A DNA stretch of 64,000 nucleotides, from positions 186,001 through 250,000 of the forward strand of contig JADQBB010000001.1 in the NCBI GenBank assembly GCA_016903695.1. The letters are read 5' to 3'. Made by a program: the position numbers and the translations under genes. This stretch comes from Chlorogloea purpurea SAG 13.99. GTDB taxonomy: Bacteria > Cyanobacteriota > Cyanobacteriia > Cyanobacteriales > Microcystaceae. The notes below the pieces were generated by a model. The model was given only the letters and a program-made list of their open reading frames with translations, made no database searches and was not told where the DNA came from. This document shows positions 968-35,109 of the stretch, piece after piece. How positions within the stretch are numbered: position 1 is the first letter of the stretch; the number at the start of each line of letters is the position of its first letter.

Positions 968-1918
968 CTAGAGATTCATGGGGCTTTCTGATGTACCGTC
1001 GAGAAACCTGATGATTTTATCTTGAATATTTTTATTGCCGTATCTCTCCAAAATCATCGTGCTGGCCTCCCGACGAAAATAAAGACGGTAATTTCTCCCT
1101 ATACGGTATTCATAATGACCCGTCGCTCCGCCGGCCAAGTGTTTGACCGGAAAACCGAGGGGATTATCGGCGATTCTCTGTAAATAGGATTGTAGGATGA
1201 AAAACTGCAATCGATCGCTATCAAAAATATATTCCACGTCCGACCAGAAAGAAGCGGTGATTTTAAACGGGTTCAAAAACTGCAAGATGGACTTGATGCC
1301 CCCCGCCGTGGCGTTTAAAGCTTCCCCTGCTTTCTGGTAAGCTTGGGACAGGGCACTTTCTCGATCGCCCGCCTGCTTTAAATCCGCCAGTAATTGCTCG
1401 TGGATACTTTTTAAAGCCGCGTACTGTTCTCTTATTTGAGCGCTATCAGCCTCTAATTCAGAGATAGGTGTTACTAAACCTTCTCTTTCTAATACTTCAT
1501 AAGCCGATTCCCAATTTTCTTTTTGGTCTACATAGATATTACGACGCTGTAAAGCCGCTTCGATCGCGCACTCGAACTGAGTTTCCGATACGGGTTTGAT
1601 CAAGTGACCGATTACGCCCAGGGTCGCGTATTGTTTGGCTAAATAAGAAGTCCCCTGCCCGGTGATGACGATGACTCTATTCTGATAATAGTCTTTGTCA
1701 AGATTTTCCAACACATCAAAACCCGTTTCGTCTCCCAGATTATGATCTAGAAGAATCATATCGAAGGGTTCGCAGTTGGGTTTTTCGCTGTGTTCGAGCG
1801 CTTCTAAAGCTTCGTCTACATTCGCCGCTTCCTCGCAGCTATGCTGTCTCCGATCCAGTCTTGATTTCCACTCCTCGCGGATAAATTGTTCATCGTCAAT
1901 AATCAGAAAGTGTGCCAT
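968..1918 (-). CDS. Response regulator with C-terminal RelE/HigB-like domain
   Basis: The 316-residue protein opens with a receiver domain (about 1-122). The acidic pair is D8/D9, the phosphoacceptor D58 (in MILLDHNL), the switch Thr lies in VITGQG, and the conserved Lys is K108 in LIKPV. Residues about 130-205 are charged and probably coiled coil. Residues about 222-307 resemble the RelE/ParE/HigB fold: a helical hairpin, then KHLAGG, GHYEYRIGRNYRLYFRRE and a last strand ILERYGNK. The NYRLYF core matches the family's conserved (W/Y)R(L/I)xF strand. Receiver phosphorylation may therefore control an mRNA-cleaving or toxin-derived binding domain; that output is inference. The gene follows the kinase by 8 bases. 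No separate antitoxin is visible, so the domain may be inactive or held in check in cis. Confidence 0.85.
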   Translation of the reverse strand: MAHFLIIDDEQFIREEWKSRLDRRQHSCEEAANVDEALEALEHSEKPNCEPFDMILLDHNLGDETGFDVLENLDKDYYQNRVIVITGQGTSYLAKQYATLGVIGHLIKPVSETQFECAIEAALQRRNIYVDQKENWESAYEVLEREGLVTPISELEADSAQIREQYAALKSIHEQLLADLKQAGDRESALSQAYQKAGEALNATAGGIKSILQFLNPFKITASFWSDVEYIFDSDRLQFFILQSYLQRIADNPLGFPVKHLAGGATGHYEYRIGRNYRLYFRREASTMILERYGNKNIQDKIIRFLDGTSESPMNL

Positions 1919-1926
1919 ATAAGTAT

Positions 1927-3411
1927 TTACTCCTTAGATCGTTGGTGGTTAATTAAAGGGAAAATAAAACTAACTTTAGCTCCCTTGATGGGTGGTTTAT
2001 CTTTACTATCATCCTTCTGGCCTGTGTCTATAATATTCTCTATTTTGGGTTTTCCCTCGTGAAGGGCCAAATATGCGAAAATAATCATGCTACCGTTACC
2101 CTGCATTTCTCCCCCGGAGGGATTGACGCGCTGCGGTTGTTGATAGAGAGTGGTTAATATTTTTTCTGGAATACCGGGGCCGTTATCTTCTATTTCAACG
2201 ATCGCTGTCTCATCATCACCTCGTTTGCAGGTTACGGATATGCGCCCTTCAAAAGACTTATCTCTTAATTTACGCCGATATTTCTTAAGAGCGGCACTAG
2301 AATTATACATGGCATTTTTAATAATGCTCCTCAAGTGCCAGGGATTACAATTAATCCACAGCGGTTCTTCGCCGTAGTTAAATTTTAAATCCCACTCTTG
2401 TACGGTAGGGGGTAAATGTTTTTGAAAATATTCAACCTGCTCTCGAACTAATATCGCTTCACTATCTAAACGAGTTGTTCCCCTTAAATCTCCGATCACC
2501 CATTCTAAAGTTTTTATTGTTTGGTCGGCTTCTTTAATAAATTCGATTAGCTTATCGGCATGAGAACGCTCTTGGCTTTGTAAACTGATGATCGCTTCAG
2601 TTATAGTCGATCTGTTGCTCTCTCCTTTACCTAGCAAAGGAGCTTTGTATATATCATGAATTATATTACTCATATCCGAGTTAATTCTTTGTAAAATACT
2701 TTTGAGTATGCTGTCTAATTGTTGCAATCGATTGGCGATAACCGATGTGAAATCTTGTTCAATAATATGCTCGAAAGCTGTATTAAAAGTTATGGTTTTT
2801 AATAATTCGTGCTTAGTTTTCAATAATTCGTTTTCCGTTTCCAGCCTTTTTTCTTCTTGCCGTAGTTGATGGATTTTGAAAGATAAGAGGAGAGAGACGA
2901 GAGAAGCAAAAATTAAAACCGGTAAGATAAAAGCCGCTTTATCGGGAGAATATTCAACATCTTTAACATAGACCTGACCCACTACTATAGACTGTCCCAA
3001 ATTATTCGGTGGTGTATATTCCACTGGCAAAGGAATTAACTTAGGATGCTCTGTCAAAAATTGTTCCCCTAATACTCTACTTTCCGTGTACTTAGAAGAT
3101 AAATTACTAACTACATCTTTACTGATAGGATCGATGACGACGACCGTAATATTCGGGCTGAATATTTTCAAATTATAAACATAATCTCTTATTTTATAGT
3201 TCAGGTGTTTGAGAGGATTGGCTAGATTTTGCTGTTGATTGTCTTTGATTAACGATGGCAGGACGTACTGTAACATCTTGGTGTAAGATTTTGTCAAATC
3301 ATCATGTTGACTTTGCTGATAATTATTAAATAATATACCTGAGATGATAGCGATTAAAGCGGGCAAGGCTAATATTGTGGTGTTTTTAATTTTCAGCGAA
3401 GTCGGTTTCAT
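1927..3411 (-). CDS. Membrane sensor histidine kinase
   Basis: This is a 494-residue two-component kinase of the inner membrane. Membrane segments at about 12-29 and 160-180 bracket a periplasmic domain of some 130 residues. No HAMP domain is obvious; a charged coiled coil follows at about 181-206. The likely phosphoacceptor is H252 in NIIHDIYKAP. The N box (N366, in IIKNAMYNS) lies 114 residues downstream, as expected. The G1 box is IEDNGPGIP and the G2 box is GNGSMIIFAY. The gene sits 9 bases after a PhnD-like lipoprotein and 8 bases before a response regulator. The three probably form one pathway in which the lipoprotein presents a ligand to the periplasmic domain; that link is inferred from gene order. 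Confidence 0.88.
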   Translation of the reverse strand: MKPTSLKIKNTTILALPALIAIISGILFNNYQQSQHDDLTKSYTKMLQYVLPSLIKDNQQQNLANPLKHLNYKIRDYVYNLKIFSPNITVVVIDPISKDVVSNLSSKYTESRVLGEQFLTEHPKLIPLPVEYTPPNNLGQSIVVGQVYVKDVEYSPDKAAFILPVLIFASLVSLLLSFKIHQLRQEEKRLETENELLKTKHELLKTITFNTAFEHIIEQDFTSVIANRLQQLDSILKSILQRINSDMSNIIHDIYKAPLLGKGESNRSTITEAIISLQSQERSHADKLIEFIKEADQTIKTLEWVIGDLRGTTRLDSEAILVREQVEYFQKHLPPTVQEWDLKFNYGEEPLWINCNPWHLRSIIKNAMYNSSAALKKYRRKLRDKSFEGRISVTCKRGDDETAIVEIEDNGPGIPEKILTTLYQQPQRVNPSGGEMQGNGSMIIFAYLALHEGKPKIENIIDTGQKDDSKDKPPIKGAKVSFIFPLINHQRSKE

Positions 3412-3420
3412 GACGATTAT

Positions 3421-4329
3421 TTATTTAAAGTATTGTTGACAGGCAATTTTAACCGGTTTATGTTTATAAAACTCACCCAGAGAATCTACTTCTTTAACAA
3501 TTTTTCCCAAAGTTCGGTAATTAGATTGGTTCACTGTAACTTGAGACTCTAATATATTTTCATCCTTGCTGCCTTTTGGTATTTTCGCCGGTGGTATTCC
3601 GGCCATAACCGCTTTTATTTTTTCCCTCATGTGTGTACTGAGGTGAGGATTAAACAGAATAGCCCCCTTAGGAATATCCATACTTTTAGCAACGACCGTA
3701 AAAGTTCCTTTCGGGAAAAGAGTATCCCCCTCGATCAAAGCATCGGGAGCAGCGCCAATATCGTATTCATTTGAGGCCACGGCATTCTTAATCTTGTCAT
3801 AATCTCCTAAAAAGCCTATTTTCTTGACCGTCGCCCCACATAAAGTATGTACGGGGACAACGTAACCAGAAGCGGAACCAACTTGATTGAGGGCTAGAGT
3901 CTTGTCCGTTAATTCCTCTATCTTAAAATTTTTAGCCAGGGGGCTATCGCTACGCACGAATAACCAAGATTGATAAGTTCCTTTTCCATAAGCTTGAAAT
4001 ACCGGTATCTGACCGCACTGTACGGCCTTCGCCGCTACCACGGGTGACATGGCGAAAATTACATCCCATTTCCCTTCACAGATTAACTCAACCCCCCTGT
4101 CATAATTATTCGTGTTCGTTAACTCCACTTTGACATCGGGTATTTCCTCTTCGATCGCATCTTTGAACACGTCTAACTGGATGTTAGATTTAGCATTATT
4201 CTGGAAATGTACTAAGCCCATAATAATCTGTTGTTGGGGTTCTTTCGTTTGACAGCTATTAAGGGCTAGTATACTTCCGGCTACTAGTAAGCCCAGAAGA
4301 ATTATCTGTATAGGTTTTCCCGGTTTCAT
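3421..4329 (-). CDS. PhnD-like periplasmic substrate-binding lipoprotein
   Basis: This 302-residue protein belongs to the phosphate/phosphonate-binding PhnD family. A lipoprotein signal ends in LNSC, with the lipidated Cys at position 26. Family features are the opening strand IIMGLVHFQNN, the segment KWDVIFAMSP, the hinge region SGYVVPVHTLCG and the NEYDIGAAPDAL strand. No transporter permease or ATPase lies nearby. Instead the gene leads an operon with a histidine kinase and a response regulator, so it more likely serves as a ligand sensor than as an uptake protein. This arrangement of a PhnD-like protein beside a kinase is seen in other bacteria. The ligand cannot be read from the sequence. 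Confidence 0.88.
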   Translation of the reverse strand: MKPGKPIQIILLGLLVAGSILALNSCQTKEPQQQIIMGLVHFQNNAKSNIQLDVFKDAIEEEIPDVKVELTNTNNYDRGVELICEGKWDVIFAMSPVVAAKAVQCGQIPVFQAYGKGTYQSWLFVRSDSPLAKNFKIEELTDKTLALNQVGSASGYVVPVHTLCGATVKKIGFLGDYDKIKNAVASNEYDIGAAPDALIEGDTLFPKGTFTVVAKSMDIPKGAILFNPHLSTHMREKIKAVMAGIPPAKIPKGSKDENILESQVTVNQSNYRTLGKIVKEVDSLGEFYKHKPVKIACQQYFK

Positions 4330-34728: not shown

Positions 34729-35109
34729 TTAGCCCCCTGGTTTACAGACGTTGTAATCTTCGTGAGAAATTACTGCTTCGGGAATAAGTACACTATTGTG
34801 GTAACGGCACAAGAGGCGATAGTGACGGGTGACGGGAATACTGATGATAAAACGATCGTGCCTGAGTCTTTTACCGTGGAAGTCTCGATAATTACGGTGA
34901 TTCTGTAAGCCAGTGAGGATTTCCCTGGCTTTCAAGACTACATTTCTGGGAAAGGGGCGCAAATCTATGGGATCGTAAGTGAATGCGGTTTCCCACTCGT
35001 ATTTCTCCTGTTTCTTGGTATCCCACACTACTTGCTCTTGAGTACAGCGATGGCAAATCTGTCCGTACCCCTTATGACCACAAGAAAATTTCTTCTTTCT
35101 TCTTGACAT
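34729..35109 (-). CDS. Zinc-binding conserved protein with RelE-like C-terminus
   Basis: This 126-residue protein starts with a basic run and a Cys/His cluster (CGHKGYGQICHRC) that should bind zinc. The second half (about 60-120) has the pattern of the RelE/ParE fold: basic helices with HGKRLRHD, then strands IISIPVTRHYRLLCRYH and EAVISHEDYN. Similar cyanobacterial proteins exist as a zinc-binding family of unknown function (I recall DUF7682). RNA binding is possible. It precedes the cysteine desulfurase gene by 43 bases in the same direction. Confidence 0.72.
   Translation of the reverse strand: MSRRKKKFSCGHKGYGQICHRCTQEQVVWDTKKQEKYEWETAFTYDPIDLRPFPRNVVLKAREILTGLQNHRNYRDFHGKRLRHDRFIISIPVTRHYRLLCRYHNSVLIPEAVISHEDYNVCKPGG

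Follow-up and report, generated by a model that had tools for sequence, protein, structure and literature searches.

A cyanobacterial response regulator with a predicted RelE-fold output domain: a candidate two-component route to RNA or the ribosome

Introduction

Can a histidine kinase and a receiver control a toxin-like domain that acts on RNA? Two-component systems act nearly always via DNA, second messengers or protein contacts, and the combination of a receiver with an enzymatic output is an already known arrangement. Toxins of the RelE fold, for their part, are normally restrained by separate antitoxins. The question is raised by a gene in a stretch of 64,000 nucleotides from Chlorogloea purpurea SAG 13.99, called the window here, for which the original prediction had proposed a response regulator with a RelE/HigB-like output domain. 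With a RelE-fold output, a signal from the membrane would reach translation quickly and by a direct route, and the regulator would exemplify a toxin that is kept in check by a receiver rather than by an antitoxin.

Results

An intact receiver joined to a helical linker

The open reading frame predicted at 968-1918 exists: on the minus strand, the coding positions 971-1918 and the stop codon specify a response regulator of 316 amino acids that has relatives of the same layout in other genomes and consists of three parts, i. e. a receiver, a helical linker and a C-terminal RelE-fold domain. The receiver (residues 1-125; 1544..1918, minus strand) is matched by the Pfam family PF00072 over residues 5-118 (E=3e-19). 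The key residues D8, D9, D58 and K108 that had been listed for it are all present, as is T86, and in an alignment of seven family members D9, D58, T86 and K108 are invariant, with D or E at position 8. As judged from its residues, the receiver is intact: it has the acidic pair, the phosphoacceptor aspartate (D58, codon 1745-1747, minus strand), the threonine or serine and the lysine that are expected of a two-component receiver.

The linker (residues 126-215; 1274..1543, minus strand) is predicted by AlphaFold2 to form helices at 136-145, 152-183 and 187-203, and it probably serves dimerisation or inhibition. The full-length model has a pTM of 0.45, and the relative placement of the receiver, the linker and the RelE part is uncertain in it; the secondary-structure elements of the RelE-fold domain are the same as in the prediction for the isolated domain.

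The C-terminal domain is predicted to adopt the RelE fold

The output domain (residues 216-309; 992..1273, minus strand) is matched at the level of single sequences by several families of the RelE clan. For the window regulator alone, the Pfam scan gave a marginal match of the C-terminal part to ParE_like (E=0.093). Family members scanned singly matched HigB-like_toxin (0.001), ParE_toxin (0.0038), ParE_like (0.023) and YafQ_toxin (0.045), and the best RelE-clan Pfam match of the Aulosira member was ParE_toxin (E=3.3e-4). Moreover, the NCBIfam model RelE_StbE was matched by four of the seven members (best E=6.5e-4). The four Pfam families and RelE_StbE belong to one superfamily, RelE/ParE; the curated Pfam and NCBIfam cut-offs were reached by none of these RelE-clan matches. 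A sequence search of the PDB with the domain alone gave no match. When the family profile, which is thin, was compared with cyanobacterial HigB-like toxins by hhalign, the probability was 77% or 36%, depending on one row, and its comparison with single E. coli toxins yielded nothing significant; the fold assignment does not draw on these comparisons.

The fold prediction is far clearer. AlphaFold2, given residues 205-316 together with six relatives, returned a model with a pLDDT of 92.9 and a pTM of 0.87 that has helices at 18-30, 32-47 and 92-104 and strands at 54-56, 64-69, 73-80 and 83-91 (domain numbering). With this model, Foldseek found 14 PDB matches at E<=0.001, all of them toxins of the RelE/YoeB/YafQ type (TM by target 0.65-0.78); Methanococcus RelE, Cami1 (8phb, 8phj), ParE2 and HigB entries follow further down the list. 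The predicted domain has the strand, two helices, antiparallel sheet and C-terminal helix that characterise the RelE fold. We regard the fold assignment as settled because a confident model and, at this threshold, exclusively toxin matches coincide. The original prediction was to fall with a confident match to another fold or with the fold missing from the model; what the model gave was the RelE fold.

The mean pairwise identity is 0.56 in the RelE part as compared to 0.46 in the receiver and 0.44 in the linker, and with 29 of its 94 columns invariant the RelE part is the best-conserved segment of the regulator.

A conserved basic and acidic cluster at the putative active site

The two motifs reported near the C-terminus are there, GHYEYRIGRNYRLYFRRE at residues 267-284 and ILERYGNK at 289-296, and both lie within the putative active-site strands (residues 267-296; 1031..1120, minus strand), which are supported by invariance among the seven members and by the register with YafQ. 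K259, just upstream of these strands, as well as E270, R272, R278, R292 and K296 are invariant in all seven members. In a register obtained by gapless extension of an hhalign alignment whose score is not significant, K259 corresponds to H50 of YafQ, E270 to D61, R272 to H63 and K296 to H87, and R83 is also in register. Three of the six YafQ catalytic positions are thus occupied by invariant basic residues and one by an invariant acid. In the case of RelE, R61 maps to R278 and R81 to K296. The base-stacking aromatic (RelE Y87, YafQ F91) has no aromatic counterpart at positions 302 and 300, D67 of YafQ is not conserved in the family, and the catalytic histidines of YafQ are all replaced. In pairwise comparisons with the E. 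coli toxins, the similarity score alone lacks significance, being reached by 17 to 141 of 500 shuffles, and the residue map therefore rests on the fold and the register.

In YafQ, the substitutions H50A, H63A, H87A, D67A and F91A abolish activity whereas D61A halves it, and natural homologues with D61E and H63R exist (PMC6529426). R61 and R81 of RelE are important for cleavage, and RelE with R81 mutated still cleaves somewhat (PMC2807027). When RelE and RNase Sa2 are superposed, K52 of RelE coincides with the glutamate that acts as the general base in RNase Sa2 (PMC2807027), and in our comparison K52 aligns with the invariant E270; an arrangement like that of RNase Sa around E270 is therefore conceivable, albeit speculative.

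The operon encodes a kinase and a putative sensor

The gene at 1927..3411 (minus strand), separated from the regulator gene by 8 bases, codes for a histidine kinase of 494 amino acids (HATPase_c, E=2e-8) with H252 in the H-box HDIYKAPL. Among seven aligned kinases, H252, N366, N370, D409-G411, G438 and G440 are invariant, the consensus of the H-box is HD-(I/L)-x-KA-(P/S)-x-L, and the N and G boxes are intact; to judge by these boxes, the protein is the cognate kinase of a two-component pair. A kinase of the same family lies directly upstream of the regulator at every locus for which the upstream DNA was available, namely in the window and at L019, L020, L021, L022, L023, L024 and L108. The L020 kinase is broken by IS elements, and the contig of L026 ends before the position of the kinase.

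The first gene of the operon (3421..4329, minus strand; 9 bases from the kinase gene) encodes a PhnD-like periplasmic binding lipoprotein of 302 amino acids (PF12974, E=2.8e-25) with a lipobox-like LNSC motif recognised by eye, and this lipoprotein is the probable sensor input. At L019:1214-4060, a 948-amino-acid fusion of a Ser/Thr protein kinase with a PhnD-like part replaces the lipoprotein before the histidine kinase in the same operon. At L196:2286-4663, a kinase of the same type lies beside a regulator of 225 amino acids without a RelE domain, with IS630-type ORFs following, which suggests either an exchange of the output or a truncation.

At the compared loci, the regulator gene has no recurrent small neighbour that resembles an antitoxin gene: the kinase is the sole constant neighbour. 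The pairing of a toxin gene with a small antitoxin gene that defines type II toxin-antitoxin systems is thus absent, and PADLOC reported nothing relevant for the proteins of the operon. At four loci of one genus (L020, L021, L023, L024), a nucleoside 2-deoxyribosyltransferase-like gene, recognised by eye, adjoins the kinase-regulator pair, which may be no more than shared synteny.

A rare and patchily distributed family

Relatives with the order receiver, linker and RelE domain occur in G145 (57% identity), in the Gloeomargaritales genome VI4D9 (G419, two copies), in G445 and in G542. Another, BAZ78665.1, is encoded on plasmid4 of Aulosira laxa NIES-50 and carries only the annotation 'putative sensory box/response regulator'. 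Identity among members from separate genomes is 37-57%, and this rules out chance and a chimeric assembly as the origin of the architecture. In G085 (locus L024), the regulator gene is split by a transposase gene, so that its function is dispensable there. In a divergent relative from G044 (L009:1420-2304, minus strand), the receiver has lost its phosphoacceptor and the RelE part most of its basic cluster; this protein may represent a phosphorylation-independent branch. G068 has retained a short remnant of the RelE domain adjoining a PhnD-like gene. At L025:6369-8261, a protein of 630 amino acids in which a PhnD-like C-terminal part and a NERD-like start were both recognised by eye lies next to a RelE-domain remnant of 30 codons.

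The family is rare: a match occurs in only seven of 390 Cyanobacteriia genomes, in one case to a remnant only, and for the window's own order it is two of 391 genomes. This patchy spread and the plasmid copy suggest horizontal transfer. A pattern scan of the genome contigs with the single protein found no relative, and a second, alignment-based scan was swamped by receiver-only matches, with L028, again the G419 locus, as the sole true relative. In phage records, matches were limited to the receiver and the linker. As regards selection, the near-identical G419 copies contain too few changes, and most other pairs are saturated at silent sites.

The window contains another protein related to this clan (34729-35109, minus strand; 126 amino acids) in which a cysteine/histidine-rich start precedes a ParE_like domain (PF24732). 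Its family was matched in 36 of the 39 cyanobacterial genomes searched, mostly at about E=1e-27. Toxins are not usually so nearly universal, and this distribution suggests that the protein is a RelE-fold protein that has been domesticated.

Discussion

Our analysis leads to the proposal, for which we see a nearly even chance, that the regulator is an effector with a RelE fold that is controlled by phosphorylation and has RNA or the ribosome as its target. The PhnD-like lipoprotein and the membrane-bound histidine kinase would sense something in the periplasm, and the kinase would phosphorylate D58 of the regulator. Phosphorylation would alter the packing or the dimer state of the receiver and the linker and may in this way free the RelE-fold domain, which would then act on RNA or at the ribosomal A site and slow translation. 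In such a scheme, the receiver and the linker, set by the kinase, would do the restraining job of the separate antitoxin of type II systems. Sequence and structure prediction support the parts of this scheme: an intact receiver, a predicted RelE fold, a conserved kinase and operon and a conserved cluster of basic and acidic residues. The family is small and compact and lies beside its own kinase, and this makes the idea directly testable.

We favour an effector because the receiver and kinase motifs are intact and the kinase is encoded directly upstream, because the best PDB matches are mRNA interferases and the signal-gated Cami1 is also in the list of matches, and because the RelE part is the best-conserved one, its basic and acidic residues are invariant and no antitoxin is conserved. 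The proposal is weakened by the missing stacking aromatic and the unconserved D67 position, by the non-significant pairwise similarity to the E. coli toxins, by the L009 relative that lost its phosphoacceptor and most of its basic cluster, and by the split gene at L024. It is tempting to go one step further: the response regulator may itself cut mRNA or rRNA, switched by phosphorylation, with the receiver and the linker replacing the antitoxin in the same chain, and E270 and the arginines possibly standing in for the usual catalytic residues of the RelE clan. From the sequence, this more specific version is tentative and the less probable one. Second in rank to the effector, with a chance hardly different from that of the cutting enzyme, stands a former toxin that does not cleave and whose binding to RNA, to the ribosome or to a partner protein is controlled by phosphorylation. 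The missing aromatic and D67 and the replacement of all YafQ catalytic histidines fit such a binder well, an invariant charged surface would suit binding too, and an antitoxin would be unnecessary. However, four of the six YafQ catalytic positions hold basic or acidic residues, the catalytic sets of the RelE clan vary, and R81-mutated RelE has residual cleavage (PMC2807027).

The remaining explanations fare worse. If the RelE-fold domain were a dimerisation or autoinhibitory module only, the receiver would be the output, as in single-domain regulators; the RelE-less regulator beside a same-type kinase at L196 could be read in this way, although IS630-type ORFs follow it, but a mere module would hardly be expected to be better conserved than the receiver and the linker, and we consider this unlikely. 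Still somewhat less probable is an output like ParE that acts as a poison of DNA gyrase or interferes with DNA topology in another way: ParE_toxin is the top RelE-clan match of the Aulosira member and ParE2 structures are among the Foldseek matches, yet they rank below the RNases YoeB, YafQ and RelE, which head the structural comparison. An artefact, either a chimeric assembly or a false resemblance to RelE, might be suspected from the single-sequence HMM scores below the curated cut-offs; it is refuted by the occurrence of the architecture in independent genomes and on a finished plasmid and by the confident fold, and we give it next to no weight.

How, then, does the proposed phosphorylation-controlled effector compare with known systems? 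Regulators with enzymatic outputs (GGDEF, PP2C, CheB and others) likewise use a receiver to gate an effector that does not bind DNA. RelE-type outputs are absent from the response-regulator censuses that we examined (PMC4558063, PMC9953108), one of which, a survey of thermophilic cyanobacteria, lists no RNA-binding output among response regulators (PMC9953108). A limited literature search, with most subscription journals outside its scope, found no published response regulator with a RelE-type output, in agreement with the initial statement that such an output is not known as a standard class; on present evidence, the RelE-type domain is a new output class of response regulators. The wider claim that two-component signalling would be linked to RNA in a new manner holds only for a route by cleavage or ribosome targeting: coupling to RNA by binding is established for the ANTAR regulators of the EutV type, in which a receiver also controls an RNA-directed output, there an RNA-binding antiterminator domain rather than a RelE fold (PMC3369931), and a signal-gated RelE RNase is known with Cami1 (PMC11229360). 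The toxins YafQ, YoeB and RelE have the fold in common with the regulator domain and basic or acidic residues at several catalytic positions, but they are free-standing, paired with antitoxins and keep the aromatic, whereas the regulator domain is fused to a receiver, has no antitoxin and lacks the aromatic. Cami1, the CARF-RelE mRNA interferase that serves as an ancillary effector of type III CRISPR systems, comes closest, since it also unites a signal domain and a RelE fold in one chain (PMC11229360). Its input is cyclic tetra-adenylate bound by the CARF domain, in a CRISPR context and with no kinase; the N-terminal domain of the regulator is by its sequence a receiver, which sets the protein apart from Cami1 proper, and its input would be phosphorylation. 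By this analogy, the regulator is best read as the two-component counterpart of Cami1.
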